Part shown: positions 1,907 through 29,860 of the stretch, in pieces
Numbering within the stretch: position 1 is the first letter of the stretch
Layout of the letters: each line of letters opens with the position of its first letter
Assembly (NCBI RefSeq): GCF_002786325.1
Contig: NZ_PGTB01000034.1
Coordinates: forward strand, 1-32,508
Origin: Pseudooceanicola lipolyticus
GTDB taxonomy: Bacteria > Pseudomonadota > Alphaproteobacteria > Rhodobacterales > Rhodobacteraceae
Length of the DNA stretch: 32,508 bases
Reading direction: 5' to 3'
The notes under the pieces: generated by a model
Databases searched by the model: none
What the model was told of the DNA's origin: nothing
Seen by the model: only the letters and a program-made list of their open reading frames with translations
Translations under genes and position numbers: made by a program

Positions 1907-1933
1907 TTAAGCATAAGTCCATTGCGCTGGGTT

Positions 1934-3065: not shown

Positions 3066-3149
3066 TCCGCTCTCCTGTATTCGCGATCTGAACCAAGGTT
3101 GCCAACTTCGCCCAAGGCGCGCAAGCGGCTGCGATGCGATTTCGCGAAA

Positions 3150-3191: not shown

Positions 3192-3216
3192 TCCTTTGGC
3201 ATCCTGTGCGGTCCGG

Positions 3217-3516
3217 TCAAATCGTATCCGGCACCTGCGAGCCGTCCTTGAACGGGCCGATGGCGGTGTTGGGCGGGGCGATGCCAGAGCAGACCGGGCG
3301 GCCATAGCTGTCCAGCCGCGCGTCCATATAACCTTCCAGCCCGTCATCGATGATCCAGTGGTCGCAACCGTTCGGATCCACCCAGATGCCGGCGCTGAGC
3401 ACGCCCAGTTCCTTCGAATCGATCCCCCGATCGGCGGTCAGGTCACCGCCATTGATCCCGCAGGCCGACAGGGCCGCCACTGCCGCGATGACCGAAACCG
3501 TTTTCACAACACGCAT
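3217..3516 (-). CDS. Small lipoprotein sharing a Cys/Trp/Asp-rich block with the upstream OmpA-like protein
   Basis: The 99-residue product has an N-terminal lipoprotein signal: two basic residues, a hydrophobic run and a lipobox LSAC with Cys19 as the lipidated residue. The rest should be periplasmic or outer-membrane anchored. Residues 43-76 carry a block WVDPNGCDHW, DDGLEGYM and GRPVC that matches, with a few substitutions, a block in the gene just upstream. The C-terminus (GPFKDGSQVPDTI) has no recognisable domain. ATG at 3516 is preceded by GAGGAA. The gene begins 10 nt after the OmpA-like gene stops and is followed by a strong terminator, so the two form a transcription unit. Function is unknown. 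The shared pair of Cys residues suggests an intramolecular disulfide, which is an inference. Confidence 0.82.
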   Translation of the reverse strand: MRVVKTVSVIAAVAALSACGINGGDLTADRGIDSKELGVLSAGIWVDPNGCDHWIIDDGLEGYMDARLDSYGRPVCSGIAPPNTAIGPFKDGSQVPDTI

Positions 3517-3526
3517 CACTCGTTCC

Positions 3527-4108
3527 TCACTGCAGGCAGATGATTTCGACACGGCGGTTTTCCGCCCGACCGCGCGCGGTGTCGTTGCTGGCGCGCGGCT
3601 GGCGCTCGCCATAGCCGCGCACGTCCAGAACCCGCACGCCGGTCGCTTTGGCGACCAGCGCCACCGAATTGGCGCGGCGTTCGCTGAGCCGCATGTTGTA
3701 CTCGTCCGAGGCGCGGCTATCGGTATGCCCGGTGATGATAAAGCCCGAGGGCGCGGTGGCGCGGGCAAAGAAATCGCGCAGGCGCTGTTGACCGGTGCCG
3801 CTGATCTGCCACTTGTCGGTGTCGAAATACTGGTCGGTGGGCATGATGCCGCACACCTTGCCGCGGCGGCAGACCGGGCGGCCGTCCCGGGTGAGATGCG
3901 GGCTCATGTAACCTTCGGCGCCGTCATCCATGACCCAATGTTCGCAACCATCCGGATCGACCCAGATCGACGGCACATAGCGCTCGGCATAGCGCGGCTG
4001 TTCCGAGCTCTGCGCGCGCACCTCTGCAGGGATCAGCAGCGCGACCGACAGCGCCAGCAGCGCTGCCAGCGAAAGCAGCAGCAGTTTGATCGTGTCATTC
4101 CCGGCCAT
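3527..4108 (-). CDS. OmpA-family peptidoglycan-binding protein with an N-terminal Cys/Trp/Asp-rich block
   Basis: The N-terminus has one long hydrophobic segment (IKLLLLSLAALLALSVALL) ending in VRAQ, a likely signal peptide. Residues 48-80 hold the block WVDPDGCEHW, DDGAEGYM and GRPVC that recurs in the next gene. Residues about 90-193 form an OmpA/MotB C-terminal domain with TGHTDSRASDEYNMRLSERR (peptidoglycan-binding loop), RGYGERQP and NRRVEI. The protein probably ties the envelope to peptidoglycan. It has no beta-barrel, so it is not a classical OmpA porin. ATG 4108 is chosen because it gives a compact signal peptide and has AAGG upstream. An in-frame TTG at 4129 would add seven residues. 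The gene lies between miaB and phoH and is paired with the small lipoprotein. Confidence 0.87.
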   Translation of the reverse strand: MAGNDTIKLLLLSLAALLALSVALLIPAEVRAQSSEQPRYAERYVPSIWVDPDGCEHWVMDDGAEGYMSPHLTRDGRPVCRRGKVCGIMPTDQYFDTDKWQISGTGQQRLRDFFARATAPSGFIITGHTDSRASDEYNMRLSERRANSVALVAKATGVRVLDVRGYGERQPRASNDTARGRAENRRVEIICLQ

Positions 4109-4299
4109 CGTATCGACTACCTTATTCAATTCTGTACCTGAAACCGATGCGAGACCTTAGATCACAAAGCCGGGCGGGGAATAAGATAATTGCGATCTCG
4201 CGGAGAAATAGCGGCATTTTCATGGCATTTCCCGGCGATTTTGCTTGCGGGCTGTCAACACTGGCGCCTGTGTGCGGGCACTGTTCGCGGTGTGGCAAC

Positions 4300-5652
4300 T
4301 CAGGCCGGGGCCGAATCGACCGGCGCGGAGGTGTCGATCACCTCGCCACCCAGCGAGTTGGCGCCCGAGGAAGTGATGCGCACCGAGGCGATATCGCCCG
4401 CCGCCAGGCCGCCGCCCTGGACATGCACCGCATGCAGATAGTCAGACTTGCCCACCATCTGCCCCGGCAGGCGTCCGGGCTTTTCGAACAGAACTTTCAC
4501 CGTGCGGCCAACCATCGCGTCTTGCGCCGCGCGCTGCTGGCGGGTGATCAACGCCTGCAGCCGCTGCAGGCGGTCGTCCTTGACCTCCTCGGCCACCTGC
4601 GGGCGTTCCGCCGCCGGGGTGCCCGGGCGGGTGGAATATTTGAACGAATAGGCATAGCCATAGCCAACCGCGTCGATCAGATCGAGCGTGGCCTGGAAAT
4701 CCTCTTCGGTCTCTTCCGGGAACCCGACGATGAAATCCCCCGACATCAGGATATCGGGCCGCGCGGCGCGGATGCGCTCGACCAGGCGCAGATAGCTTTC
4801 AGCAGTGTGGCTGCGGTTCATCCGTTTCAGGATCTTGTCCGACCCGGCCTGCACCGGCAGATGCAGATAGGGCATCAGCTTGGCACATTGGCCATGCGCC
4901 TCGATCAGGTCGTCGGTCATGTCATTGGGGTGCGAGGTGGTGAAGCGGATGCGCTCCAGCCCGTCGATGCCGTCCAGCGCCCAGATCAGCCGCGCCAGCG
5001 ACCAGTCGCCGCCGTCGCCGGCGCCGTGATAGGCATTGACGTTCTGGCCCAGCAGGGTGATCTCGCGCACGCCGCGTTCCACCAGGTCGCGCGCCTCGGA
5101 CAGGATCCGCTCGGCCGGGCGGCTGACTTCGGCGCCGCGGGTATAGGGCACCACGCAGAAGGCGCAGAACTTGTCGCAGCCTTCCTGCACGGTCAGAAAG
5201 GCGGTCGGGCCGCGCTTGGCCCTGGGGCGCGCTTTCAGCCGCTCGAACTTGTCCTCTTCGGGGAAATCAGTGTCGAGCGCCTTTTCCCCCTGCCGCGTCT
5301 TCGCCTCCATCTCGGGCAGGCGGTGATAGCTCTGCGGGCCGACCACCAGGTCGACCAGCGGCTGGCGGCGCATGATCTCTTCGCCCTCGGCCTGGGCGAC
5401 GCAGCCGGCGACGCCGATCTTCAGGTCGGGCTTGTCCGCCTTCAGCCCGCGAAAGCGGCCCAGTTCGGAATAGACCTTTTCCGCCGCCTTCTCGCGGATA
5501 TGGCAGGTGTTCAGCAGGATCATGTCCGCGTCTTCGGGGCGGTCGGTCTGCACATAGCCTTCGCCGCCCAGGGCCTCGGCCATGCGCTCGCTGTCATAGA
5601 CGTTCATCTGACAGCCATAGGTCTTGAGATAGAGCTTTTTCGGAGCGGACAT
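4300..5652 (-). CDS. miaB: tRNA-2-methylthio-N6-dimethylallyladenosine synthase MiaB
   Basis: MiaB is a radical-SAM methylthiotransferase that adds the 2-methylthio group to i6A37 of tRNAs. The 450-residue product has the full architecture. The UPF0004 domain holds three cluster-binding cysteines (Cys14 in TYGCQMN, Cys50 in LLNTCHIRE, Cys84 in VAGCVAQ). The radical-SAM motif CDKFCAFC supplies Cys159, Cys163 and Cys166, followed by LLGQNVNAY, the [13 protein letters not shown] segment and [12 protein letters not shown]-terminal TRAM domain starts near 380. A promoter-like sequence lies just upstream at 5687-5715. The spacing to the downstream OmpA-like gene (191 nt) leaves co-transcription open. 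All catalytic residues are present. Confidence 0.96.
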
Positions 5653-8509: not shown

Positions 8510-8539
8510 TTGCGGGACCGGCGAGCCCGGTGCTAGAGG
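8510..8539 (+). promoter_or_regulatory. Weak candidate promoter for fabA
   Basis: TTGCGG (8510-8515) and TAGAGG (8534-8539) are 18 nt apart and about 40 nt before the fabA ATG. The -10 element matches consensus poorly, so this is tentative. Confidence 0.25.
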
Positions 8540-8580
8540 ATGCAGAATGCAGAAACGACCGAGGCAGGAGACGCGCGGGC

Positions 8581-9093
8581 ATGGCCGATTACCCGAGCAG
8601 TTTTGATAAGGACGAGTTACTGAAATGCGCGCGGGGCGAATTGTTCGGCCCCGGCAACGCGCAATTGCCGGAACCGCCGATGCTGATGATGGACCGCATC
8701 ACCGAGATCAGCGCCGATGGCGGGGCCCATGGCAAAGGCCATGTGGTCGCCGAGTTCGACATCACCCCGGATCTCTGGTTCTTCAAATGCCATTTTCCGG
8801 GCAACCCGATCATGCCCGGCTGTCTGGGTCTGGACGGGCTGTGGCAGTTGACCGGGTTCAACCTGGGCTGGCGCGGCATGAAGGGGCTGGGCATGGCGCT
8901 GGGCGTTGGCGAGGTCAAGCTGAGCGGCATGGTCACGCCAGAGCGCAAGATGATCACGTATTTTGTCGATTTCACCCGCATCATTGATCGCAAGCTGAAA
9001 CTTGGTGTCGCCGATGGCCGGGTTGTCGCCGATGGCGAAGAGATTTATGCGGTGAAGGGAATGAAGGTGGGCCTGTCGGACGGCGGCGTCTGA
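8581..9093 (+). CDS. fabA: 3-hydroxydecanoyl-ACP dehydratase/isomerase FabA
   Basis: FabA dehydrates 3-hydroxydecanoyl-ACP and isomerises the trans-2 to the cis-3 decenoyl-ACP, the branch point for unsaturated fatty acids. The 170-residue product has the hot-dog fold signature [20 protein letters not shown] with catalytic His71 and Asp85, at nearly the same numbers as E. coli FabA. ATG 8581 is preceded by GGAG at 9-nt spacing. In-frame starts further upstream (from 8530) have no support. It is followed after 39 nt by fabB and then fabI, all on the same strand, forming a fatty-acid operon divergent from irr. All active-site residues are present. Confidence 0.96.
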
Positions 9094-9132
9094 ACGGCTG
9101 TCCACGCGCCACCACCAACAAGGAGTATGCCG

Positions 9133-10362
9133 ATGCGTCGCGTCGTCGTTACCGGGCTGGGGATCGTCTCGTCCATCGGGACCAACCGCGACGAGGTGAT
9201 CGCCTCGCTGAAGGCCGGGACCAGCGGAATTGCCGCCAGCCCCGAGATGGAGGAACACGGGTTCCGCAGCCGGGTGGCGGGCACCATCGATCTGGATGTC
9301 AGCGCCCATGTCGACAAGCGCAGCCTGCGCTTCATGGGGCCGGGCGCCGCCTATGCCCATATCGCCATGGCCGAGGCGATTGCCGATGCCGGCCTGGAAG
9401 AGGGCGACATCGTCAACCCGCGCACCGGGCTGATCGCCGGCTCGGGCGGGCCGTCGACCAGCGCCATGTTGACCGCGCATCAATCGGTGCTGAAGACCGG
9501 CGCGACCAAGCGCATCGGGCCCTTCGCGGTGCCCAAATGCATGTCCTCGACGATCTCGGCCAACCTGTCGACCGCCTATAAGATCAAGGGCATCAACTAT
9601 TCGATCACCTCGGCCTGCTCGACCTCGCTGCATTGCATCGGCAATGCCGCCGAGCAGATCATGCTGGGCAAGCAGGACGTGATGTTCGCCGGTGGCGGCG
9701 AGGAGCTTGACTGGACCCTGTCCTGCCTGTTCGACGCGATGGGCGCGATGTCGTCGAAATACAATGACACGCCGGAACGCGCCTCGCGCGCCTTCGACGC
9801 CGACCGCGACGGCTTTGTAATTTCCGGCGGCGGCGGCATCGTGGTGCTGGAAGAGCTGGAACATGCGCTGGCGCGCGGCGCCCGGATCTATGCCGAGGTG
9901 ACGGGCTATGCCGCCACCTCGGACGGGCATGACATGGTGGCGCCGTCGGGCGAGGGCGGCGAGCGGGCGATGCGGCTGGCGCTGGCGACGCTGCCCGAAG
10001 ACCGCAAGATCAGCTATATCAACGCCCATGGCACTTCGACCCCGGTGGGCGATGTCGGCGAGGTCGAGGCGGTGCGCCGCATCTTCGGCCAGGGCAGCAC
10101 CCCGCCGATCAGTTCGACCAAGTCGATGACCGGCCATGCCCAGGGCGCCGCCGGTGCGCTGGAGGCGATCTTCTGCCTGCTGATGCTGGACGGGGATTTC
10201 ATTGCGCCGTCGATCAATGTCGAGACGCTGGACCCGGCGCTGACGCCGGCCGAGATCGCGACCGCGCCGGTGACGGATGCCGGGTTGGACAGCGTGATGA
10301 CCAATTCCTTCGGCTTCGGCGGCACCAACGGATCGATGATCCTGTCCAGATATCGCGGGTAA
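9133..10362 (+). CDS. fabB: 3-oxoacyl-ACP synthase I FabB
   Basis: FabB (beta-ketoacyl-ACP synthase I) elongates the cis-3-decenoyl-ACP made by FabA, completing the oxygen-independent unsaturated fatty acid route. The 409-residue protein carries the Cys-His-His triad: Cys162 in [10 protein letters not shown], His299 in [11 protein letters not shown] and His335 in [11 protein letters not shown], with Lys330 nearby and a glycine-rich GFGGTNGS C-terminus. ATG 9133 is chosen because AGGAG lies 7 nt upstream. The ATG at 9127 follows AGGAG by a single base and is too close. It lies between fabA and fabI, and the FabA pairing makes FabB more likely than FabF. Confidence 0.95.
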
Positions 10363-10370
10363 CAACCACC

Positions 10371-11162
10371 ATGTCCGATCTATTGAAGGGAAAGCGCGGC
10401 CTGATCATGGGCGTGGCCAATGACCGGTCGATCGCCTGGGGCATCGCCAAGGCGATGCACGAGGCCGGGGCCGAGCTGGCCTTCACCTACCAGGGCGAGG
10501 CCTTTGGCAAGCGGCTGGAACCGCTGGCGCACAGCGTCGGGTCGGATTTCATGGTCGATGCCGATGTGACCGACGATGCCACGTTGGACACCGCGTTCGA
10601 GCAGTTGGCGGGGCGCTGGTCCAGCATCGATTTCCTGGTCCATGCCATCGCTTATTCGGACAAGTCCGAACTGACCGGCCGGTTCCTGAATACCAGCCGC
10701 GCCAATTTCAAACATTCGATGGATATCTCGGCCTATTCCTTTATCGAGGTGGCGCGGCGCGCCTATCCGCTGATGAAGGACAACGGCGGCACCCTGCTGA
10801 CGCTGACCTATCAGGGGTCCACCCGGGTGGTCCCGAATTACAACGTGATGGGCGTGGCCAAGGCGGCGCTGGAGGCGGCGACCCGCTATCTGGCCAATGA
10901 CCTGGGGCCGGACGGCATCCGGGTGAACGCGATTTCTCCCGGCCCGATGAAAACGCTGGCCGGCGCCGCCATCGGCGGCGCGCGCAAGACCTACAAGTTC
11001 ACCGATCAGAACGCGCCCCTGCGCAGCAACGCGACGCTGGAGGCGGTGGGCGGCACTGCGGTCTATCTGGCCTCGGATGCCGGACGGTTCACCACCGGCG
11101 AGGTCATCCGCGTCGATGGCGGCTATCACGTTCTGGGCATGCCGCAGCCGGACTTCCTCTAG
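10371..11162 (+). CDS. fabI: Enoyl-ACP reductase FabI
   Basis: FabI is the NADH-dependent reductase that closes each fatty-acid elongation cycle and is the target of triclosan and isoniazid-type inhibitors. The 263-residue short-chain-dehydrogenase-type protein has the altered nucleotide motif GVANDRSIAWGIA (about 14-26), Tyr147 in LTYQGS, and the catalytic Tyr157-x6-Lys164 in NYNVMGVAK, followed by ISPGPMKTLA. The start is ATG 10371, 8 nt after fabB, with only a weak ribosome binding site, which fits translational coupling. Standard FabI length. The following hairpin at 11163-11198 could end the operon. Confidence 0.96.
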   Translation: MSDLLKGKRGLIMGVANDRSIAWGIAKAMHEAGAELAFTYQGEAFGKRLEPLAHSVGSDFMVDADVTDDATLDTAFEQLAGRWSSIDFLVHAIAYSDKSELTGRFLNTSRANFKHSMDISAYSFIEVARRAYPLMKDNGGTLLTLTYQGSTRVVPNYNVMGVAKAALEAATRYLANDLGPDGIRVNAISPGPMKTLAGAAIGGARKTYKFTDQNAPLRSNATLEAVGGTAVYLASDAGRFTTGEVIRVDGGYHVLGMPQPDFL

Positions 11163-15157: not shown

Positions 15158-15607
15158 ATGCGCAAACCCTCTTCCAACACCCGTATCGACCGGTTCAAGG
15201 CGCAGGCCCGGCAGCTGCGTACCGAGCTGGCCGGCAAAGGCCGCGCGATCGGCCATGGCGAAGCGCTGGAGATCATTGCGCGGCAAAACGGTGCGCGCGA
15301 CTGGAACACGCTCAGGGCGCTGGCCGCCCGGCCCGGCAACAACCGGCCGCTGTCGGTGGGCGACCGGGTCACCGGCCGCTATCTGGGCCAGCCCTTTACC
15401 GGCTATGTCCATGGTCTCAGCCATAGCGCGCAGTCCGATTATCAGCGTATCACGCTGCAATTCGACACGCCGGTCGACGTGGTCAGCTTTGACAGCTTCT
15501 CGTCCTTCCGGCAGCGGGTCAGCGGCGTGATCGATGCCACCGGTCAGTCGCTCTATCGCACTTCGAACGGCGAGCCGCAGATCGTGGTGGAACACGCGGG
15601 ACTGTAA
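15158..15607 (+). CDS. Glyoxalase-superfamily-like small protein
   Basis: The 149-residue soluble protein has an N-terminal segment AIGHGEALEIIARQNGARDW followed by NTL that matches what I know of the 'glyoxalase superfamily protein' domain (Glyoxalase_8 type, with the QALE...A...G.RDWNTL pattern). Residues about 65-149 form a second segment with GRYLGQPFTGYV and VDVVSFDSFSSFRQRV, which I do not recognise. The usual glyoxalase metal ligands are not obvious, so enzymatic activity is doubtful. AAGGAGG precedes ATG 15158 at 8-nt spacing, a strong start. A strong terminator follows at 15632, so the gene is probably monocistronic. Function remains unknown. Confidence 0.75.
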   Translation: MRKPSSNTRIDRFKAQARQLRTELAGKGRAIGHGEALEIIARQNGARDWNTLRALAARPGNNRPLSVGDRVTGRYLGQPFTGYVHGLSHSAQSDYQRITLQFDTPVDVVSFDSFSSFRQRVSGVIDATGQSLYRTSNGEPQIVVEHAGL

Positions 15608-15631
15608 CCCGCCGTTGCCCGGCGCGTTCCC

Positions 15632-15667
15632 AAACCCGGCCAACCTGGTTGCAGGCTGGCCGGGTTT
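15632..15667 (+). terminator. Strong intrinsic terminator after the glyoxalase-like gene
   Basis: AAACCCGGCCA (15632-15642) and TGGCCGGGTTT (15657-15667) make a perfect 11-bp stem with a 14-nt loop. The A/T ends let it work on either strand, but only the plus-strand gene reads into it. Confidence 0.75.
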
Positions 15668-15936
15668 GCGGCGTTTGCCGCCGCGCCAGCGCCAGAGATG
15701 GGCTTTGAAAAGCCATAGATCCCCTCTGCCCCTATGTGGCTGCCGGGCAGTGTAACCCAATCTTCAAGAATCCGACATCCAGCCGTGATCCGGGCGGCTT
15801 TAGTCTCCCCGCCCGTGGGGGAGCCTCTGCTCCGCAAAATTGACCGATTCCATCTCGATCCCGGCCGTTTGGGCCGCGGGGCGATGGTGCTGCTTGGTGC
15901 CGCGGATTTGCGGCGGTTTGACAAAGGATGACTATT
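15668..15936. other. Upstream region of the giant secreted protein gene
   Basis: This 269-bp stretch holds no coding frame. I see no convincing -35/-10 pair and no match to the PhoB-box pattern (two direct CTGTCAT-like repeats). AAAGGA at 15922-15927 is the ribosome binding site of the next gene. Confidence 0.4.
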
Positions 15937-18900
15937 ATGGCTTTCAAATTGCAGGTTCTTCATGCCTCGGATCTCGAAGGCGGACTGGACGCCATCGAGA
16001 ATGCGCCGAATTTCGCGGCGATCGTCGACGCGCTGGAAGCCGATTCCGCCACCGGCGGTTTTGCCTCGGTCCTGCTGTCCTCGGGCGACAATTACATTCC
16101 CGGCCCCTTCTTCAATGCCGGCGGTGATTTCGGCTTGGCCAATACCTATGAAGGATTTTATAACCAGCTGTTCGGCCTGATCGACGTGTCGGGCCTGGAC
16201 GCCGCCGCCGATCTGAACGGAGATGGCTTTTTCGACAATGACGAAATCGAGGCCCAGATCACCGCGGGCTCGTTGACCTTCGACGCGGTCTATACCACCG
16301 ATGTCAACGGCGACGGCCAAAAGGACTATTTCGAAGAGATCGATACCGAATCCGGCCGCCTGGACATTGCCATCATGAATGCGCTGGGCTTCGATGCCAG
16401 CGCGCTGGGCAATCACGAATTCGACGCCGGCACCGACATCCTAGAAAACATCATCAATTACGACAGCGAAGAGGGCAACGCGCTGTCGACCGGCCGCTAT
16501 GGCAATGTCAACTACCTGCAGGAAGTCGACACGCCCGGCGTGCAATTTCCCTATCTCTCGGCCAATCTCGATTTTTCGATGGATTTCGACGTCGGCGCGT
16601 TGTTCACCGATGCGATCCTGGGCAATGAAAGCTTTGCCTCGGACCTGCTGAGCGCCCGCGAGAACCCGGCCGATCCGTCCGCTACCGCCCCCGATTCCAA
16701 TGATGCTAAGGTCGCGCCCGCCACCGTCCTCACCCGCGATGGCGAACAGATCGGCGTCGTTGGCGCCACCACCCAGCTGGTGTCGCAAATCTCTTCCACC
16801 GGCACCATCCAGGATCAGACCAGCCCGAATGTCGCGGATATGGCAGCGCTGGCGGCGCTGTTGCAGCCAATCATCGACGACGTGCTGGACGGTGCAGACA
16901 ATGTTGCCGGCACCGGCGATGACGTGAACAAGGTGATCATCGTCAGCCATCTGCAGCAATTCGCGCTGGAACAGGAACTGGCCGGGCTGCTGCGCGGCGT
17001 CGATATCATCCTGGCCGGCGGGTCCGACACCATCTCGGCCGATGACCAGGACAGGCTGCGCGCGGGCGATACCGCCGAACAACCCTATCCCGCGATCGTC
17101 AATGATCTGGACGGCAACCCCACCGCGATTGTTTCGACGGATGGAGAATATTCCTATGTCGGCCGCCTGGTGGTGGAATTCGACGACAGCGGCGTAATTG
17201 ACCCGGCTTCGATCGACGCGGCGGTTTCCGGCGCCTATGCAACCGATGACGCCGGTGTTCTGGCCGTGACCGGTGCGGCGACCCTGGACGCGGCCATCGC
17301 CGCCTCGGACAAGGCCGCGACGGTCGCCGGGCTGACCGGTGAAGTCACCGCCGTGGTCACCGCGCTGGACGGCGATATCGCCGGCGAGGCCAGCGTCTAT
17401 CTGAACGGCGACCGCGACTCGGTCCGCACCGAAGAGACCAATTTCGGCAACCTGACCGCCGATGCCAACCTGGTCGCGGCGCAGGCCGTCGACTCGGCGG
17501 TCGTGGTGTCGATCAAGAATGGCGGCGGCATCCGCGCCGGGATCGGCCAGGTGATCGACAATGGCGATGGCACGGTGACCTCGCTGCCGACCGCCGCCAA
17601 TGACCTGTCGGGCAAGGAAGCCGGCGAGATTTCCGAGCTCGATATCGACAACGCGCTGCGCTTCGACAACCAGTTGACCATCGTCGAACTGTCCACTGCC
17701 GATCTGCTGGCAGTGCTGGAACATGGCGTCGCTGCCACCGAAGCGGGCGCAACCCCGGGCCAGTTCCCGCAGGTGGGCGGCCTGCGCTTTTCCTTCGATC
17801 CCGACCAGCCCGCCGGATCGCGGGTGCAAAGCGTTGCGCTGATCGACGAGAACGGCATACAGACCGAGCTGCTGGTCAATAACGGCATGGTTGTTGCCGG
17901 CGCGCCGGACGTGATCAAGGTGGTCACGCTGAACTTCCTGGCCGATGGCGGCGACGGCTATCCCTTCGCGGCATTGGCCGAGAACCGTGTCGACACCGGA
18001 CTGGGCGAGCAGGCGGCGCTGTCGGACTACCTGTCCGCCAATTTCCCCAAGGACGGCACCGCCGCCTTCGACATTGCCGATACCTCGGCGGCCGCCGATA
18101 CCCGCATCCAGAACCTGTCGCTGCGCGCCGATACCATCGGTGCCCCCGAAGCGACCGAGGACCTGGCCGTCACGGTCTATGCCGAATTTGTCGGTGAGGG
18201 CGGCGAGGCGGCGTCGGAAGTGGTGGCGCATGAAAACGGCGAGCTGTTCGTCACCAATGGCGAACTGGGGCGCATCGATGTCTTCGACATTCCTGCCCCC
18301 GACGCCACCGTCAATCCGGACGCGGTGCGCAGCATCGACCTGACCGGGCTGGACGGGTACGACGGTGTGCAATCTGTCGCGGTCAAGAATGGTGTGGTCG
18401 CCGCCGCCATCGCGCGCAGCTCGATGACAACCGAGGTGTTCGGCACCGAGGTCGAACTGTCGCAGCCCGGCTTCGTCGCCTTCTTCGATGCCGCCACCGG
18501 CGACCTGCTCAGCCGGGTCGATGTTGGCAACCTGCCCGACCAGATGACCTTCAGCGATGACGGCACCACATTGCTGGTGGCCGGCGAGGGCGAAAAGAAC
18601 GCCGACAGCGATCATGGCAATGACCCGCTGGGCACCGTGGCGATCATCGATGTGACCGATGCAACCGCGCCGGTGGTGAACCTGATCGACTTTACCGCGC
18701 TGAATGGCCTGGAAGATGCCGCGCGTGCGGCGGGTATCCGCATCGCGCCGGGCGCCAGCCTGGCCGCGGATCTCGAGCCGGAATACACCGCGATCAGCCC
18801 CGACGGCACCACCGCCTTCGTTTCGCTGCAGGAAAACAACGCGATCGCCAAGATTGACCTGGCCACGCAGACGGTGAGCGACATCTTCTCGCTCGGCACC

Positions 18901-21867
18901 GTCGACTTTTCCAGCGAAAGCGCGCTGGATGCCGATGACAACGGCCTGATCGACATCCGCAATTTCGACAACTTGGCCGGTCTGCGGATGGCCGATGCGA
19001 TCGCCAGTTTCGAAGTTGGCGGCAAAACCTATGTCGCCACTGCCAACGAGGGCGACAGCCGCGATTTCGACACCGATCGCGTCGAGGACCTGTACGAAGA
19101 CGGCCTGCTGGACCCGTCCATCGACATCACCGGCCTGGAGCGGCTGGAAGTCTCGACCGTCGATGGCGATATTGATGGCGACGGCGATATCGACGTGCTG
19201 CACACGCTGTCGTCGCGGTCGTTCTCGATCTACGATGCGGATGGAACCCTGGTGTTCGACTCCGGTGCCCAGTTTGAACAGATCATCGCCAATATCGCGC
19301 CCGACCGCTTCAACGATGACGACGGTGGCGACAGCGAGAACCGGTCGGATGCCAAGGGCCCCGAGCCCGAGGCGATTGCCGTGGGCGAGGTCGGTGGCTC
19401 GACCTATGCCTTTGTCGGGCTGGAGCGCGACAGCGGCATCATGGTCTATGACGTGACCTATCCGGCCGCAGCCGAGTTCGTGACCTATATCGCGCCGGCC
19501 TTCGTCGACAGCACGCCCGAGGGCGAGGTGGCGCGCCATGGACCCGAGGTGATCAGCTTTATCGCTCCCGAAGCCAGCCAGTCGGGCAAGGCGCAAATCG
19601 CCGTGTCTTACGAAATTTCCGGTACCACGGTGGTGTATGATCTGGAGGCCTTGACGCCGCGCGTCACCATCCCGGAAATCCAGGGGGCGGGGCATGTCTC
19701 GGCCTTCGACGGGCAAGAGGTGCGCACCAGCGGCATCGTCACCGCCGTGTCGTCGACCGGCTATTACCTGCAGGACGCGCTGGGCGATGGCGATGACGCC
19801 ACCTCGGACGGCATTTTTGTCTACACCGGCTTTGGCAATACCGGCGCCATTGCGGTGGGCGACGAAGTGGCGCTGCGTGGCACGGTATCGGAATATATCC
19901 CGGGCGGTGCCGCGACGGGCAACCTGTCGACCACGCAAATTTCACCCAGCGAACCGGGCACGATCCTGTCCAGCGGCAATGCGCTGCCGGCGGCCACCGT
20001 GCTGAGCGCGGCCGGGCGGCAGGCGCCGGACGATATCGTGATCTCGGAGGATGAACTGCCGGTGAACCTGCAGGAGGAACCTGGCACCTTCGACCCCGCG
20101 CAGGACGGCATCGATTTCTACGAAAGCCTGGAAGGCATGCGCGTTACCGTCGATGCGCCGGTGGCGATTTCGGCCACCAACCGCTTTGACGAAACCTGGG
20201 TGCTGCCCGATGCCGGGGCCGGGTTCGACCTGAACGGCCGCGGCGGGCTGAACATCAATGCTGATGCCGATGGGTATGGCGACCTGAACCCGGAACGCAT
20301 CCAACTGCAGTATTCCAACCTGCTGCCCGATGCCTTCACCGCGCCGGCGCTGGTGCTGGGCGATCAGCTTTCGGATGTGACCGGGGTGGTCGACTATGCA
20401 TTTGGCAACTTCGAAATCCGGGTGACCGACAGCTTTGCCGTCGAAACCGCCAGCCCGCTGACCGCGGAAACCACCACCATCCGCAACGGCGTGAACGACC
20501 TGACCGTCGCCACCTATAACGTGCTGAACGTCACCTCGGCCCCGGCCGATGGCGATGCGGCGCAGATCGCGGCGCTGGGCGCGCAGATTGCCGTCAATCT
20601 CGGGGCGCCGGATATCCTGTCGCTGCAGGAAATCCAGGACAATTCCGGTGTTGCCGATGATGGCACGCTGTCGGCCGACGAAACGCTGCAGGCAATTGTC
20701 GATGCGGTCATCGCGGCAGGCGGCCCGGCCTATTCCTTTGCCAGCGCGGTGGTCGATGTGGATGGCGAAAACGGCGGTGTGCCGGGGGGCAATATCCGCA
20801 ATGCCTTCCTGTATCGCAGCGACCGTGTCGATCTGAAAGAGACCGTCACGCTGGAAAGCGATGTGCTGGCAGATATGGGTGTCACCGATCCCGACGCCTT
20901 CGACGGCACCCGCGATCCGCTGCTGGGCGTGTTCGAATTCAACGGCCAGGAGGTCACCCTGATCAACAACCATCTCAGCTCGCGCTTTGGTTCCACGCCG
21001 ATTTTCGGAGGGCCGCAGCCCTTCGTTCAGGCCGGCGAGGACCTGCGCGAGGCGCAGACCAAGGCGCTGAACGAGGTGGTCGACGCGTTGCTGGCAACCG
21101 ACCCGGATGCCCGGATTGCGGTGATGGGGGACCTCAACACCTTTGAATTCACCGACGAACTGACCGAGGATCTGCCGGGCACCGGAAGCGAGAAGGTGCT
21201 GACCAACCTGATCGGGCTGGTGGATCAGGATGACGCCTATAGCTATGTCTTCGACGGCAACGCGCAGGCGCTGGACCACATCTTTGTCTCTGACGAATTG
21301 CTGGATATGGCGCAGGTCGATTACGTCCACGTCAACAACGACTTCCCCAGCTTTGTGTCCGATCACGAGCCGATTGTCGCCCGCTTTGTCATCAAGCCGA
21401 ACGGCCTGGACCTGACCGGCACGACCGGGCGCGACGTCCTGCAGGGGATGAGCGGTGACGACCAGCTTGCCGGTAAGGGCGGCCGGGACAAGCTGATCGG
21501 CTATATGGGCGACGACGAACTGTTCGGGGGCGCGGGTCGCGACCGCCTGATCGGCGGCAAGGACGACGATCTGCTGGTCGGCGGCAAAGGTCGGGACGTG
21601 CTGAAAGGCGGCCAGGGGGATGACAAGATGTGGGGCGGTCAAGGGCTCGATACCTTCATCTTCAAGGGCGAGTTCGGCAGTGACAGGCTGCTGGATTTCG
21701 ACGTCGAGAAGGACCTGATCCTGTTTGTCGACGCATCCGCTTCGGATGTGACCCTGCGCGAAAACGTACTGGGCACCCGGGTTGTGGTCGATGGAGGCCA
21801 GACCGAGGGCAAATTGTTCCTGGTCGGGCAGTTTGACCTCCACGCCGATGACTTCATCTTTGTCTGA
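15937..21867 (+). CDS. Giant RTX-secreted metallophosphatase / nucleotidase / EEP-nuclease fusion
   Basis: The 1976-residue protein has no N-terminal signal peptide and ends in RTX repeats, pointing to type I secretion. In order: metallophosphatase (1-380) with ASDLEGG, SSGDN (Asp51, Asn52), LGNHE (Asn159, His160), VSHLQQ (His338) and LAGGSD (359-364); within it two EF-hand-like loops DLNGDG (91) and DVNGDG (122). A 5'-nucleotidase C-terminal domain (about 480-700) shows NFGNL and IKNGGGIR. A propeller-like choice-of-anchor I segment spans about 745-1240 and an OB-like segment 1245-1420. The EEP nuclease/phosphatase domain (1520-1820) keeps Glu1565, His1679, Asp1732, Asn1734, Asp1780-His1781 and Asp1809-His1810. 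Nine or so GGxGxD repeats span 1827-1905. ATG 15937 has AAAGGA at 8 nt. It likely releases phosphate from organic phosphates or DNA outside the cell. Confidence 0.9.
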   Translation: MAFKLQVLHASDLEGGLDAIENAPNFAAIVDALEADSATGGFASVLLSSGDNYIPGPFFNAGGDFGLANTYEGFYNQLFGLIDVSGLDAAADLNGDGFFDNDEIEAQITAGSLTFDAVYTTDVNGDGQKDYFEEIDTESGRLDIAIMNALGFDASALGNHEFDAGTDILENIINYDSEEGNALSTGRYGNVNYLQEVDTPGVQFPYLSANLDFSMDFDVGALFTDAILGNESFASDLLSARENPADPSATAPDSNDAKVAPATVLTRDGEQIGVVGATTQLVSQISSTGTIQDQTSPNVADMAALAALLQPIIDDVLDGADNVAGTGDDVNKVIIVSHLQQFALEQELAGLLRGVDIILAGGSDTISADDQDRLRAGDTAEQPYPAIVNDLDGNPTAIVSTDGEYSYVGRLVVEFDDSGVIDPASIDAAVSGAYATDDAGVLAVTGAATLDAAIAASDKAATVAGLTGEVTAVVTALDGDIAGEASVYLNGDRDSVRTEETNFGNLTADANLVAAQAVDSAVVVSIKNGGGIRAGIGQVIDNGDGTVTSLPTAANDLSGKEAGEISELDIDNALRFDNQLTIVELSTADLLAVLEHGVAATEAGATPGQFPQVGGLRFSFDPDQPAGSRVQSVALIDENGIQTELLVNNGMVVAGAPDVIKVVTLNFLADGGDGYPFAALAENRVDTGLGEQAALSDYLSANFPKDGTAAFDIADTSAAADTRIQNLSLRADTIGAPEATEDLAVTVYAEFVGEGGEAASEVVAHENGELFVTNGELGRIDVFDIPAPDATVNPDAVRSIDLTGLDGYDGVQSVAVKNGVVAAAIARSSMTTEVFGTEVELSQPGFVAFFDAATGDLLSRVDVGNLPDQMTFSDDGTTLLVAGEGEKNADSDHGNDPLGTVAIIDVTDATAPVVNLIDFTALNGLEDAARAAGIRIAPGASLAADLEPEYTAISPDGTTAFVSLQENNAIAKIDLATQTVSDIFSLGTVDFSSESALDADDNGLIDIRNFDNLAGLRMADAIASFEVGGKTYVATANEGDSRDFDTDRVEDLYEDGLLDPSIDITGLERLEVSTVDGDIDGDGDIDVLHTLSSRSFSIYDADGTLVFDSGAQFEQIIANIAPDRFNDDDGGDSENRSDAKGPEPEAIAVGEVGGSTYAFVGLERDSGIMVYDVTYPAAAEFVTYIAPAFVDSTPEGEVARHGPEVISFIAPEASQSGKAQIAVSYEISGTTVVYDLEALTPRVTIPEIQGAGHVSAFDGQEVRTSGIVTAVSSTGYYLQDALGDGDDATSDGIFVYTGFGNTGAIAVGDEVALRGTVSEYIPGGAATGNLSTTQISPSEPGTILSSGNALPAATVLSAAGRQAPDDIVISEDELPVNLQEEPGTFDPAQDGIDFYESLEGMRVTVDAPVAISATNRFDETWVLPDAGAGFDLNGRGGLNINADADGYGDLNPERIQLQYSNLLPDAFTAPALVLGDQLSDVTGVVDYAFGNFEIRVTDSFAVETASPLTAETTTIRNGVNDLTVATYNVLNVTSAPADGDAAQIAALGAQIAVNLGAPDILSLQEIQDNSGVADDGTLSADETLQAIVDAVIAAGGPAYSFASAVVDVDGENGGVPGGNIRNAFLYRSDRVDLKETVTLESDVLADMGVTDPDAFDGTRDPLLGVFEFNGQEVTLINNHLSSRFGSTPIFGGPQPFVQAGEDLREAQTKALNEVVDALLATDPDARIAVMGDLNTFEFTDELTEDLPGTGSEKVLTNLIGLVDQDDAYSYVFDGNAQALDHIFVSDELLDMAQVDYVHVNNDFPSFVSDHEPIVARFVIKPNGLDLTGTTGRDVLQGMSGDDQLAGKGGRDKLIGYMGDDELFGGAGRDRLIGGKDDDLLVGGKGRDVLKGGQGDDKMWGGQGLDTFIFKGEFGSDRLLDFDVEKDLILFVDASASDVTLRENVLGTRVVVDGGQTEGKLFLVGQFDLHADDFIFV

Positions 21868-21889
21868 GCACTGACAACAATTCCAAGAC

Positions 21890-21926
21890 GCGGGGGCGCC
21901 GGGTACCGGCGCCCCCGCTTTGTTGG
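21890..21926 (+). terminator. Strong intrinsic terminator after the giant gene
   Basis: GCGGGGGCGCCGG (21890-21902) and CCGGCGCCCCCGC (21906-21918) form a perfect 13-bp stem with a 3-nt loop followed by TTTGTTGGG. Confidence 0.85.
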
Positions 21927-21975
21927 GCTCGGCCTTGCGGGATATCACGGTTGCTTTGGCCGGAAGCGGACCGAT

Positions 21976-22776
21976 ATGTCTGAGCAATCACATCGCCACC
22001 GGACTGCCCGCATGTACCGACTCCCGCGCCTCTGCCTGGCGTTGATCACCGCTTTTGCCGCCACATCGGCAGCCTGGGCCGGTGAGATCACGGTCTTTGC
22101 CGCCGCCAGCCTGAAAGACGCGCTGGACGACATTGCCGCCACCTATCAGGCGCAGACCGGCGACACCGTGCGCGTCTCGCTGGCCGGCTCCTCGACCCTG
22201 GCGCGGCAGATCGAGCAGGGCGCGCCGGCGGATATCTTCATCTCGGCCCATCCCGGCTGGATGGACCGGCTGGAGCAGGCCGGGCTGATCGCGCCGGACA
22301 GCCGGGTGGACCTGCTGGGCAATGCGCTGGTGCTGATCGCCCATGGGCACAGGGCGCCGCCGCTGCGGATCGGTCCGGACATGGCGCTGGCCATGCGGCT
22401 GGGCGAGGGACGGCTGGCGATGGCGCTGGTCGATGCGGTGCCGGCGGGCATCTACGGCAAGGCGGCGCTGGAGCATCTGGGCCAGTGGCCGGCGGTGGCG
22501 GATCGGGTGGTGCAGGCCGAGAACGTGCGCGCGGCGCTGGCGCTGGTTTCGCTGGGCGAGGCGCCGTTTGGCATCGTCTATCGCAGCGATGCGGTGGCCG
22601 ATGCGGCGGTGACGGTGGTGGGCACCTTCCCGGCAGAGAGCCACCCGCCGATCATCTATCCCGCCGCCGCAGTCGCAGACAGGGACAATCCGCTGAACCG
22701 CGCCTTCCTCGCCTATCTGCGCGGCGACGCGGCGGGCGCGGCGTTTCAGCGGCACGGCTTCGACCTGCTGGACTAG
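21976..22776 (+). CDS. modA: Molybdate ABC transporter substrate-binding protein ModA (orphan)
   Basis: ModA binds molybdate or tungstate in the periplasm. Signal peptide YRLPRLCLALITAFAATSA with a cut after SAAWA, then the ModA N-terminus EITVFAAASLKDALDDIA, SLAGSSTLARQIEQGAPADI and ISAHPGWMDRL. The oxyanion-binding serines in AAASLKDA and GSSTLA are present, and DAVPAGIYGKAALE plus YPAAAVAD are typical. ATG 21976 gives 266 residues; an in-frame ATG at 22012 would give a shorter, more usual signal peptide. No modB or modC follows, so this copy is isolated here; a transporter elsewhere or a different binding role is possible. The next gene on the strand is an aminotransferase. Confidence 0.92.
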   Translation: MSEQSHRHRTARMYRLPRLCLALITAFAATSAAWAGEITVFAAASLKDALDDIAATYQAQTGDTVRVSLAGSSTLARQIEQGAPADIFISAHPGWMDRLEQAGLIAPDSRVDLLGNALVLIAHGHRAPPLRIGPDMALAMRLGEGRLAMALVDAVPAGIYGKAALEHLGQWPAVADRVVQAENVRAALALVSLGEAPFGIVYRSDAVADAAVTVVGTFPAESHPPIIYPAAAVADRDNPLNRAFLAYLRGDAAGAAFQRHGFDLLD

Positions 22777-26390: not shown

Positions 26391-26423
26391 CGGGCCCGCC
26401 CCACCGGGGCGGGCCCGTTGTTT
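26391..26423 (+). terminator. Intrinsic terminator after mscL
   Basis: CGGGCCCGCCCC (26391-26402) and GGGGCGGGCCCG (26406-26417) form a perfect 12-bp stem with a 3-nt loop followed by TTGTTT. It ends at the convergent aldehyde dehydrogenase gene's stop. Confidence 0.8.
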
Positions 26424-28759
26424 CATTCCCCGTAGGGCACCCAGATCGTCTTGATCTCGGTGGCCTGGGCCAGCCATTCGCCGCTGTCATTGACCGCCCA
26501 GTCGCGGGCGCGGCGGTAATTCACCCAGGTGCGTTTGAGATTGCCGGCCGAGGCGCCTTCGATCTCGGCCGAGAGGTCGGTCGAGGAAAACGACCAGACC
26601 GCGTCCACATCCAGATGCGCCGCCAGCACCGGGGCCAGTTCGGCATGGCTGCCGGTTAGGATATTGACCACGCCACCGGGCAGGTCCGAGGTGTCGAGCA
26701 CCTGGTAGAAATCGGTGGCCGCCAGCGGGAACGGCTCGGAGGCCACGGCAACCACCCGGTTGCCCATGGCGATCGCCGGCGCGATCACCGAAACCAGCCC
26801 CAGCAGCGGCGCCTCGTCGGGGCAGAGCGCGCCGATCACCCCCACCGGTTCCTTCATCGCCAGGGCGACGCCGCGCAGCGGCACGCCCTTGACCTGGCCA
26901 TCATATTTATCGGCCCAGGCCGCATAGGTGAACAGCCGCTGGATCGCCGCCGCGACCTCCTTGTCGCCCTGCCTGCCGCCCTGCATCGCGTCGAGCCGCC
27001 GGGCGAATTCCGGCGCACGGGCCGACAGGTTCTCGGCGATGTAATAGAGGATCTGTGCCCGCATGTGGCCGGTTGTCTTGGCCCAGCCCGCCGCCGCCTG
27101 CGCCGCCTCGACCGCGTTGCGGATATCCTTGCGGTTGCCCACCCCGACCTGGCCCAGCAGGGCACCGGATTTGCCCCAGACCGGGCGGGAATAGCCGCCA
27201 TCGGGCCGCGCCTGCTTGCCGCCGATATACAGCTTGGCGGTGCGGTCGAGGGGATCGGCGGGGCCACCGCTGCCGCTCAGCGGCGCGATCGGCGGTAGCG
27301 GCCGGGTCTTCGTCACCGGCCGCGTATAGGCGGCCAGCCCCTCCCAGCCGCCTTCGCGGCCGAATCCGGACTCGCGCACCCCGCCAAACCCGGCGGCGGC
27401 GTCGAACAGGTTGGTGGCATTGACCCAGACCACGCCGGCGGCCAGTTTCGGTGCGATGTCCAGCGCCAGGTTGACATTCTCGGTCCAGACCGTCGCCGCC
27501 AGCCCATAGCGGCTGTTATTGGCCAGCTGCACCGCCTCGGCCGGGGTGCGGAAGGTGCAGGACACCAGAACCGGGCCGAAGATCTCTTCCTGCATCAGCC
27601 GGTCCGACGGCGCCATGCCGGTGATCAGCGTTGGGGGATAGAAACAGCCGGTCTCGGGCAGGCCGACCTCGGCGCGATAGGTTTCGCCGGCGGAATTTTC
27701 CGCAACCATCGCGCCAATCGCCTGCAGCTGAACCGGATCCACCACCGCGCCGATATCGATACATTTGTCCAGCGGATCGCCAACCCTGAGCTTGTCCATG
27801 CGGGCGCGCAGGCGGCTATAGAAGGTTTCGGCAATCCCCTCCTGCACCAGCAGCCGCGAGCCGGCGCAGCAGACCTGCCCCTGGTTGAACCAGATCGCGT
27901 CCACCAGCCCCTCGATGGCGCTGTCCAGGTCAGCATCGTCGAAGACGATATAGGGCGACTTGCCACCCAGCTCCAACGTCAGCGCCTTGCCGGTTCCCGC
28001 CGTCGCCGCGCGGATCCGGCGCCCCACCTCGGTGGAGCCGGTAAAGGCGATCTTGTCGACTTCGGCGCCGACGATCATCTCGCCCACCGCGCCATCGCCG
28101 GTGACGATGTTCACCACGCCCTTCGGCAGCCCGGCCTGGCGGCAGAGATCGGCAAACAGCAGCGCCGTGAGCGAGGTATATTCGGCCGGTTTCAGCACCA
28201 CGGTGTTGCCCATGGCCAGGGCCGGGGCGATTTTCCAGGCCAGCATCAGCAGCGGGAAATTCCACGGGATGATCTGCCCGCAGACCCCCAGCGCCGCACG
28301 GCCCGGCAGCGCCTCCTCCATCAGCTGCGCCATGCCGGCATGGTAATAGAAATGCCGCTGCGCCAGCGGCACGTCGATATCCCGGCTTTCGCGGATCGGC
28401 TTGCCGTTATCGAGCGTTTCCAGCACCGCCAGCAGCCGCGCATGTTTCTGCAGCAGCCGCGCGATGGCATAGAGATGGCGCGCGCGCCCCGGTCCACCCA
28501 GCCGGGCCCAGGCCGGCTGTGCCTTGCGGGCGGCGGCGACCGCGGCGTCGACATCGGCCTGCGTCGCCTGGCTCACGGTTGCCAGCACCTCGCCGGTGGC
28601 CGGGTTGCGGCTGTCGAAGCCTTTGCCGGGCGCGGTGAAGGCGCCATCGATGAACTGGCCGAACCTGCTGCCCTGGTCCACCAACCAGGCCAGCGCCTCG
28701 GCCGCGCTTTCCGGCGCCGGGCCATAGTCCATGCTGTCGAAAATCTCTTTCACGTTCAT
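26423..28759 (-). CDS. ALDH16-type double-domain aldehyde dehydrogenase
   Basis: The 778-residue protein has two aldehyde dehydrogenase domains in tandem. The first (about 30-505) is complete: Asn167 in PWNFPL, Lys190 in VVLKPAEY, FTGSTEVG, Glu263 in LELGGKSP and the nucleophile Cys297 in NQGQVCCAG, with EEIFGPVL and RESGFGREGG. The second (about 515-778) keeps ALDH-like stretches (GVIGALCPDEAPLLG, VVNILTGS) but has no nucleophilic Cys and no LELGGK. This is the ALDH16 architecture, where in bacteria the first domain is active. It starts about 110 nt downstream of deoC on the same strand and may oxidise the acetaldehyde deoC releases. ATG 28759 with upstream AGAAG is chosen; an in-frame TTG at 28786 is possible. 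Confidence 0.9.
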   Translation of the reverse strand: MNVKEIFDSMDYGPAPESAAEALAWLVDQGSRFGQFIDGAFTAPGKGFDSRNPATGEVLATVSQATQADVDAAVAAARKAQPAWARLGGPGRARHLYAIARLLQKHARLLAVLETLDNGKPIRESRDIDVPLAQRHFYYHAGMAQLMEEALPGRAALGVCGQIIPWNFPLLMLAWKIAPALAMGNTVVLKPAEYTSLTALLFADLCRQAGLPKGVVNIVTGDGAVGEMIVGAEVDKIAFTGSTEVGRRIRAATAGTGKALTLELGGKSPYIVFDDADLDSAIEGLVDAIWFNQGQVCCAGSRLLVQEGIAETFYSRLRARMDKLRVGDPLDKCIDIGAVVDPVQLQAIGAMVAENSAGETYRAEVGLPETGCFYPPTLITGMAPSDRLMQEEIFGPVLVSCTFRTPAEAVQLANNSRYGLAATVWTENVNLALDIAPKLAAGVVWVNATNLFDAAAGFGGVRESGFGREGGWEGLAAYTRPVTKTRPLPPIAPLSGSGGPADPLDRTAKLYIGGKQARPDGGYSRPVWGKSGALLGQVGVGNRKDIRNAVEAAQAAAGWAKTTGHMRAQILYYIAENLSARAPEFARRLDAMQGGRQGDKEVAAAIQRLFTYAAWADKYDGQVKGVPLRGVALAMKEPVGVIGALCPDEAPLLGLVSVIAPAIAMGNRVVAVASEPFPLAATDFYQVLDTSDLPGGVVNILTGSHAELAPVLAAHLDVDAVWSFSSTDLSAEIEGASAGNLKRTWVNYRRARDWAVNDSGEWLAQATEIKTIWVPYGE

Positions 28760-28870
28760 GGCTTCTTCTCTTGTCGAATGCTTCAACTGCCGGCTCGCCC
28801 CGCCGGCGCCGGCTCGGAAGGTCGCCGCGCGCTTATGCCCGCCGCTGCGGGATTTTTCGAAAACTCCGGC

Positions 28871-29860
28871 TCATCCCAGCGCATGGCGGTATCCGGCCGA
28901 ATAGGCACCGGTTACGTGGTGCTCCAGCTGCCGTTCGATATCGCCCAGCAGCGACGAGGCGCCAAAGCGGAACAGGTCGGGCCTGAGCCAGCGATCGCCC
29001 AGTTCGTCCTTGATCAGTGCCAGATAGGTGAGCGCATCCTTGGCCTTGGAAATCCCGCCCGCCGGCTTGTAGCCGACGCGATAGCCGCTGCGCGCGTGAT
29101 AGGCGCGGATCGCCCGCAGCATCACCAAGGTAACGGGCAGGGTGGCGTTGACGCTTTCCTTGCCGGTCGAGGTCTTGATGAAATCGGCCCCCGCCATCAT
29201 GCAGACCAGCGAGGCGCGGGCGACATTGCGCAGGGTGCCCAGCTCGCCAGTGGCCAGGATCGCTTTGACATGGGCGTCGCCGCAGGCCTCGCGAAAGGCG
29301 CGCATCTCGTCATAAAGCGCCTGCCAGTCGCCCGACAGCACGTGCCGGCGCGAGATCACGATGTCGATCTCGGCCGCCCCCGCCTTGACGCTTTCGCCGA
29401 TCTCGGCCACCCGCAGGCGGAACGGCGACAGTCCGGCGGGAAACCCGGTGGAGACCGCGGCCACCGGGATGCCCGAGCCCTGCAGCGCCGCCACTGCCGG
29501 TGCCACCATGTCGTGATAGACGCAGACGGCGCCGACGGTCAAACCCGGCAGCCCCAGCGCTTCCAGCAGGTCGGCGCGCACCGGCTGGCGCGCCTTGGCG
29601 CACAGCCGCTGCACCCGCGCGACGGTGTCGTCGCCGGCCAGCGTGGTCAGGTCGATGCAGGACACGGCGCGGCACAGCCAGGCCGCCTGATAGGCTTTCT
29701 TGACCGAGCGTCGCCCCGGCAGGGTAGCGGCGCGGCGTTCGATGGCGGATGTATTGGCCTGAACCGCCCGCACCCAGTCCAGGTCCAGCGCCATGCCCGG
29801 ATTGCGCGCCTCGGTGACCTGCGGCAGATGGGCCAGGCGTTCGGCAGTCCCGGTTTCCAT
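28871..29860 (-). CDS. deoC: Deoxyribose-phosphate aldolase
   Basis: DeoC cleaves 2-deoxyribose-5-phosphate to acetaldehyde and glyceraldehyde-3-phosphate, in deoxynucleoside breakdown. The 329-residue protein has the class I aldolase Lys residues: Lys199 in DAHVKAILATGEL, Lys229 in ADFIKTSTGK (Schiff base candidate) and Lys265 in VGYKPAGGI; Asp166 in EIDIVI is also conserved. It is longer than E. coli DeoC (about 259 residues) owing to an N-terminal extension before the DLTTLAGDDT region. GGAGG at 7 nt supports ATG 29860. The ALDH16-type gene follows on the same strand. A divergent aminotransferase begins 191 nt away. Confidence 0.94.
   Translation of the reverse strand: METGTAERLAHLPQVTEARNPGMALDLDWVRAVQANTSAIERRAATLPGRRSVKKAYQAAWLCRAVSCIDLTTLAGDDTVARVQRLCAKARQPVRADLLEALGLPGLTVGAVCVYHDMVAPAVAALQGSGIPVAAVSTGFPAGLSPFRLRVAEIGESVKAGAAEIDIVISRRHVLSGDWQALYDEMRAFREACGDAHVKAILATGELGTLRNVARASLVCMMAGADFIKTSTGKESVNATLPVTLVMLRAIRAYHARSGYRVGYKPAGGISKAKDALTYLALIKDELGDRWLRPDLFRFGASSLLGDIERQLEHHVTGAYSAGYRHALG

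Follow-up and report, generated by a model that had tools for sequence, protein, structure and literature searches.

Secreted proteins that join a nuclease to a nucleotidase, and proteins that carry several phosphorus-releasing domains in one chain, are already known. YhcR of Bacillus subtilis is a secreted nuclease and nucleotidase in a single chain (PMC3222306), and nsp6490 of Nodularia spumigena is a GDPD-phytase fusion (PMC3610870); both are precedents for the gene described here. In this study, we analyzed a stretch of 32,508 nucleotides from the alphaproteobacterium Pseudooceanicola lipolyticus (assembly GCF_002786325.1, contig NZ_PGTB01000034.1; hereafter the window), in which the gene at 15937–21867 of the forward strand encodes a multi-domain fusion of a 5'-nucleotidase, a beta-propeller and a nuclease. 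The original prediction had read this gene as a secreted, plausibly phosphorus-scavenging fusion with an RTX tail; the metal-site variant of its nucleotidase and the recurrence of the fusion in other genomes go beyond it. Our literature searches, with subscription journals mostly outside their reach, returned no paper on this fusion among the hits listed, which is not proof of absence.

In YhcR there is a cell-wall sorting motif for sortase, whereas the window protein has an RTX tail. The nuclease of YhcR is of the staphylococcal nuclease type, not of the endonuclease/exonuclease/phosphatase (EEP) type, and that protein is not known to have a propeller or RTX region. The available text on nsp6490 mentions no nucleotidase, EEP or RTX part (PMC3610870), in which it differs from the window protein. 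The closest described nuclease is ExeM of Shewanella oneidensis, which was reported to require Ca2+, to reach full activity with Mg2+ or Mn2+ and to be implicated in biofilm formation (PMC6085458). ExeM and the NCBIfam family ExeM_NucH share with the window protein the OB-like segment and an EEP domain with the same catalytic motifs, whereas the window protein lies under the cut-off of that family, has an RTX tail instead of a membrane anchor, is fused to a nucleotidase and a propeller and, unlike ExeM, has no Pfam match to a lamin-tail domain. With the canonical 5'-nucleotidases UshA and CD73 it has in common the predicted two-domain fold, the GNHEFD motif, the substrate-side Arg, Asn, Phe and Asp residues and the 5_nucleotid_C domain. 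However, D-x-H has become D-x-E, GHxH/N has become GGSD and AYAY has become TDGE, and the window nucleotidase is part of a fusion while the canonical enzymes stand alone.

The gene is a single open frame of 1976 codons encoding 1976 amino acids from the ATG at 15937, with the stop at 21865–21867; an in-frame ATG at 15928 is the alternative start. No frameshift separates the halves, and relatives align through the gene in single frames. In the window protein, Pfam matches over the cut-off were obtained for 5_nucleotid_C, choice_anch_I, EEP and RTX repeats, and choice-of-anchor I was the sole NCBIfam model over its cut-off. Together with PDB alignments, these matches bear out the predicted domain order: a metallophosphatase/5'-nucleotidase (residues 1–730; 15937–18126), a choice-of-anchor I beta-propeller (residues 759–1235; 18211–19641), an OB-like segment (about residues 1264–1515; 19726–20481), an EEP (DNase I-like) catalytic domain (residues 1525–1810; 20509–21366), RTX calcium-binding nonapeptide repeats (about residues 1826–1906; 21412–21654) and a C-terminal segment ending in DDFIFV (21655–21864), all on the forward strand.

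The nucleotidase half is recognized by PF02872 (5_nucleotid_C) at residues 483–677 (17383–17967; 83.8 bits, cut-off 23.6). Pfam Metallophos gave no match in the N-terminal half at an E-value of 0.1; despite this, residues 1–730 align with 5'-nucleotidase chains of the PDB. The AlphaFold2 model of these residues, for which 58 aligned sequences were used and a divergent 12-row subclade was excluded, has a mean predicted local distance difference test score (pLDDT) of 92.0 and a predicted template modeling score (pTM) of 0.90. Its best Foldseek match in the PDB is the Thermus 5'-nucleotidase 2z1a (E-value 1.9e-41; template modeling (TM) score 0.55 on the query and 0.76 on the target), followed by CD73 chains and then by NadN and UshA. 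A profile of the clade matches 37 PDB sequences, which are 5'-nucleotidases and relatives such as SoxB; because the best of them, again 2z1a, reaches only 203 bits, no solved structure from the variant clade is evident. The model predicts that this half keeps the two-domain UshA/CD73-type fold with the 5_nucleotid_C domain.

Both canonical motifs for the binuclear metal ligands, D-x-H and GHxH/N/Q, are altered in the window protein. Compared with L043, the canonical 5'-nucleotidase encoded in the same genome, D-x-H is replaced by D12-L-E14 (15970–15978, +) and GHSHT by GGSDT (G361-G-S-D-T365; 17017–17031, +), in which Gly362 takes the place of the first His. The motif G158-N-H-E-F-D163 (16408–16425, +) is unchanged; from UshA, we take its Asn to be a metal ligand and its His and Asp to be catalytic. 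Among 126 aligned rows, 83 have D-x-E/D (78 with Glu and 5 with Asp), 22 have D-x-H and 21 fit neither class, the last comprising the 12-row subclade, a fragment and 8 rows that are distant or partial. The two sites are coupled, since the second place is Gly in all 83 D-x-E/D rows and His in all 22 D-x-H rows. The D-x-H rows count one gene twice (L003 and L043), and the D-x-E/D rows include an outlier (L137), near-identical sequences such as L075 and L134, and rows of one tandem gene that appears under both L052 and L063; the two-site match should be read as the signature of a single clade, not as 83 separate events. D51, N159, H160 and H338 are constant in both groups. The place aligned with D364 is not diagnostic because it varies within both (N 38, D 28, H 15 and G 2 of the 83; H 11 and N 11 of the 22). 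The first tyrosine of AYAY, a motif that reads TDGE in the window protein, is Asp in 67 of the 83 D-x-E/D rows. D12, D51, N159, H160, D163, H338, R497, N528, R533, F576 and D673 are invariant in 58 aligned members, which holds outside the 12-row subclade only; these 12 of the 69 reference sequences were excluded from the alignment, and merged tandem, fragment and distant rows were also omitted. By analogy with UshA and CD73, R497, N528, R533, F576 and D673 are presumably substrate-side residues.

The nuclease part matches Exo_endo_phos (PF03372) at residues 1525–1810 (45.2 bits, cut-off 24.5) and Exo_endo_phos_3 (PF19580) at residues 1655–1802 (47.6 bits, cut-off 27). The original prediction had rightly described catalytic residues of the EEP part as readable. 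The residues N1528, E1565, H1679, D1732-x-N1734 and D1809-H1810 align with those of relatives and are kept wherever the alignment reaches them; we assume that they have the catalytic roles of EEP enzymes. The OB-like and EEP part aligns end to end with PDB entries 9sf8/9sf9 (E-value 1.4e-71), named by their depositors as an endonuclease/exonuclease/phosphatase domain-containing protein. The name OB for residues 1264–1515 was given by analogy with ExeM, and the ExeM/NucH model NF033681 matches residues 1264–1805. Judged by sequence scores with this model (cut-off 300), EEP subtypes differ among the fusions carrying them, L039 and L163 lying above the cut-off (505.6 and 484.3 bits) and L066 and L076 below it (185.6 and 186.2 bits).

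HemolysinCabind (PF00353) is over its cut-off near the C-terminus, with its best stretch at residues 1872–1906 (64.4 bits, cut-off 23), consistent with the RTX calcium-binding tail that had been claimed. The segment ending in DDFIFV, read from the sequence, is likely a type I secretion signal, and similar ends occur in L040 and L041 (DDFIF) and in L039 (DFV). Reading the N-terminus by eye gave no obvious signal sequence. Elsewhere in the genome, a PrtD-type type I ABC exporter scores 678.3 bits against a cut-off of 510.15, which none of 14 control genomes passed. The protein is probably exported by the type I route. The genome is rich in RTX-like repeats: with the full-length protein as query, it yielded 74 matches, mostly to the RTX tail alone.

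The propeller is identified by PF22494 (choice_anch_I; residues 759–1235, 256.5 bits, cut-off 32) and by NCBIfam NF038117 (424 bits, cut-off 300), and its AlphaFold2 model has a pLDDT of 87.4 and a pTM of 0.90. Most Foldseek matches are generic propellers, and scores over the whole chain are low; the Sphingobium phosphotriesterase 5hrm appears at ranks 45 and 48 (TM 0.45 and 0.51 on the query). The propeller profile matches four PDB sequences, the best being the surface-layer propeller 1l0q. An alignment of 32 propellers (31 of 33 plus that of the window) has 21 invariant columns, of which 12 are charged and 9 of these acidic, compared with a D/E/R/K content of about 24% in the whole window propeller. 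This charged share hints at a functional site and leans against a pure scaffold role. The propeller itself may be a phosphatase, which we regard as a lead, and its counterparts may be the atypical alkaline phosphatases (PhoA-aty) known from cyanobacteria and algae, a likeness drawn from descriptions and not from sequence comparison. The Msp130/choice-of-anchor I family is spread over algae, marine animals and bacteria. For the dinoflagellate atypical alkaline phosphatases, database hits were reported to span these same three groups (PMC4548154). Synechococcus elongatus matches 5_nucleotid_C over the cut-off and is also matched by NF038117 and the ExeM/NucH models, with the cut-off status not stated for these two. 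That these groups have already been confused in the literature is shown by a Crocosphaera watsonii gene annotated as phoA, which was later reinterpreted to encode a 5'-nucleotidase (PMC12260270).

A scan of genome contigs confirmed at least 387 relatives, of which the best 80 were taken further; by record title, these come from cyanobacteria, alphaproteobacteria, planctomycetes, Bacteroidetes, Verrucomicrobia, Chloroflexi and others. After omission of 13 contig loci (7 with cut frames and 6 distant rows), the remaining 67 and 18 complete genes from the family of the window organism (the window included; L155, whose frame runs off its contig, omitted) made up a set of 85 complete proteins. Pfam searches at an E-value of 1e-5, with four complete family lists of 12, 17, 23 and 20 families, found 5_nucleotid_C in all 85, choice_anch_I in 55, RTX repeats in 29, PF03372 in 19 and PF19580 in 7 (the window protein has both EEP families), phytase-like domains in 16, PhoD in 4, PhoX in 2, and phytase, GDPD, PhoA and Metallophos in 1 each; a Metalloenzyme match overlaps the alkaline phosphatase in L136. 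By our own sorting, the enzyme families among the partners (EEP, phytase-like, PhoD, PhoX, phytase, GDPD and PhoA) all act on phosphoesters. No enzyme family of another kind was found among the Pfam matches of the 85 proteins, stretches without a Pfam match lying outside this survey, and, judging from their names, the other partner families represent repeat, adhesion, Ig-like, propeller, secretion or unknown domains.

Nucleotidase, propeller and EEP occur together in 17 of the 85 complete proteins, the window included, and in five of the six possible orders: nucleotidase-propeller-EEP (window, L039, L163 and L164), propeller-nucleotidase-EEP (L065 and L161), propeller-EEP-nucleotidase (L066, L076, L103 and L115), EEP-propeller-nucleotidase (L082, L107, L130, L156 and L160) and EEP-nucleotidase-propeller (L067 and L104). 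Within the 18 complete family genes, our custom profile found EEP in 10 and all three domains in 7. PF03372 was also found in 10, and as L159 was matched by Pfam only, EEP is present in at least 11 of the 18. The custom profile missed the EEP domains of L104 and L159, so counts based on it are lower bounds. By custom profiles, neither propeller nor EEP was found in the frames of the 22 D-x-H rows, of which L003, L022 and L043 run off their loci. In a FastTree phylogeny built from 114 nucleotidase domains (12 of the 126 rows lie outside it), labeled by the custom EEP profile as 19 with and 80 without EEP, with 15 undecided left out, the EEP label requires at least 10 changes, and the EEP group is more clustered than in 500 shuffles.

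Some relatives carry still more enzymes. L159 (7706–14800, −), from the family of the window organism, has EEP, phytase-like, GDPD, phytase and variant nucleotidase domains in 2365 residues, that is, five phosphohydrolase domains in one chain. L136 (2546–13882, +), from a metagenome-assembled genome of Chlorobiaceae, joins, over 3779 residues, Metallophos, a propeller into which a phytase-like domain is inserted, the variant nucleotidase and PhoA, and in L077 the nucleotidase is joined to PhoX. Such partners suggest a modular system by which phosphorus is obtained from organic matter, and phosphorus scavenging is well supported as a theme. Separately, the distant Arthrobacter protein L143 has an EEP domain and a more distant nucleotidase, and may be another instance in which these two activities are fused.

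From the domains, predicted folds, conserved residues and recurrent fusion, we infer a secreted product whose activity, metal, substrate and phosphorus purpose would be as follows. The gene probably encodes a type I-secreted multi-enzyme phosphohydrolase with a rebuilt nucleotidase metal site, belonging to a modular phosphate-stripping system. The protein would leave the cell by the type I route, and its RTX repeats would then fold in external calcium. The EEP nuclease would cut extracellular nucleic acid, either DNA or RNA, the 5'-nucleotidase half of the same chain would take phosphate off the nucleotide products, and the propeller would serve as a third phosphoester-hydrolyzing site or as a spacer. 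Canonical 5'-nucleotidases use Zn, Mn or Co. In the present clade, with D-x-H changed to D-x-E/D and the second-site His to Gly, the rebuilt binuclear site would probably prefer other metals, such as Ca or Mg. Related proteins have this kind of nucleotidase attached to EEP, PhoD, PhoX, PhoA, phytase, phytase-like or GDPD domains in varying order, which is consistent with modular chains that would strip mixed organic phosphorus of its phosphate.

Several observations weigh against this account, and some of them favor other explanations. The loss of two canonical metal-binding histidines means that nucleotidase activity is not to be assumed, and from its sequence such a nucleotidase could be inactive. 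The half would then be a catalytically dead scaffold, with EEP working alone as a DNase. The replacement of both His ligands across the whole clade would fit such a loss, as would the 12-row subclade (L114 and L117–L127), which lacks D12, has Gln at H338 and carries the motifs HYGE, DQ and GGGHE; this subclade, to which 7 of the 85 complete proteins belong (including L126, which also has PhoD and phytase-like domains), is a candidate pseudoenzyme or a second remodeling of the metal site. However, outside it the other catalytic and substrate-side residues are invariant in 58 sequences of several phyla, and the replacements are specific and not random decay (Glu in 78 and Asp in 5 of 83, and Gly in 83 of 83), and we consider a dead scaffold unlikely. 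An assembly or reading-frame artefact is scarcely credible: the window makes up an entire contig of a genome with 439 contigs and 5.68% estimated contamination, but the frame of 1976 codons is unbroken, and the three domains also share a single frame in other genomes, for example in L039 and L163, where their order is that of the window protein. On these grounds, we rejected a frameshift or artefact at the domain junctions.

The purpose of the fusion is a further point, because extracellular DNA might be degraded for carbon, nitrogen or nucleoside supply, biofilm turnover or defence, and not for phosphorus. ExeM, as noted, was reported to be implicated in biofilm formation (PMC6085458), and deoC lies about 7 kb downstream of the fusion gene, albeit on the opposite strand. 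No Pho box, allowing up to 3 mismatches to TGTCATNNNNNTGTCAT, the enterobacterial consensus, was found in the upstream region 15608–15936, and the 15 such matches in the window compare with 11.4 expected by chance, which is no enrichment. Further observations count against the main account in general. Sigma-70-type promoter matches in 15500–22100 numbered 0 against 1.4 expected. Neither phosphate-transport or uptake families nor type I secretion system genes were found among the neighbouring genes scanned, and the next gene downstream (21976–22776, +) is ModA-like and molybdate-binding. The window protein scores 158.9 bits with NF033681, under the cut-off of 300, and the variant is uncommon near the window, occurring in 19 of 395 sampled genomes of its family, its own included (E-value 1e-60 or better). 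Against a purpose limited to DNA, the best argument is that the partner enzymes of relatives act on phosphoesters: they include phytase, PhoD, PhoX, PhoA and GDPD, for which DNA is not among the known substrates. A purpose other than phosphorus seems to us improbable. The phosphorus-scavenging part of the original prediction thus stands on the relatives, whose recognizable extra enzyme domains are all phosphoester-acting, and finds no match in the window itself, where Pho box and phosphate-uptake neighbour are lacking.

A bolder extension of the phosphohydrolase reading is tentative, and we hold it to be possible but somewhat short of an even chance. The clade would be a distinct metal class of 5'-nucleotidase that uses a metal abundant outside cells (Ca or Mg), with a first site richer in carboxylates (D, E, D and usually N or D) and a second site that lacks its His. 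It would also be the core of widespread secreted multi-phosphohydrolase chains, to which bacteria of several phyla repeatedly fused EEP, PhoD, PhoX, PhoA, phytase and GDPD, with a maximum of five phosphohydrolase domains in any chain examined, and which would break complex organic phosphorus down to phosphate on a single exported molecule. Phosphorus-limited waters are fed by dissolved organic phosphorus, the hydrolysis of which is usually counted per enzyme (PhoA, PhoD or PhoX). If these chains are active, one gene can carry several steps and single-family surveys would miscount them, and the changed metal site turns metal use into a testable question. Metal use is unconfirmed for several phosphatases of marine microbes, as was stated for the PhoX and PhoA proteins of Trichodesmium (PMC12206446). 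In co-culture, Ruegeria pomeroyi was reported to secrete a nucleotidase in abundance, which goes up as PhoX goes down (PMC5839243).

The gene is directly followed by a terminator-like hairpin (21890–21918, +) of 13 G-C pairs and TTTGTT, which separates it from the ModA-like gene and has the longest stem of the 6 terminator-like sites in 15500–22100 (4.6 expected). The downstream solute-binding protein was considered as a phosphate binder and rejected, since all 15 PDB sequences that it matched are named for molybdate or molybdenum. CorC-like, PhoH-like and MiaB genes are located at 466–5652 (−); a phosphorus link through the PhoH-like gene was rejected, as the MiaB-PhoH-CorC group looks, from general knowledge, like housekeeping. 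The region 26423–29860 (−) contains an aldehyde dehydrogenase-like gene and deoC (deoxyribose-phosphate aldolase, over the cut-off), and a tie to nucleoside use is possible. At 8530–11162 (+), FabA-like, beta-ketoacyl synthase and enoyl reductase-like genes follow one another, as in the synthesis of unsaturated fatty acids.

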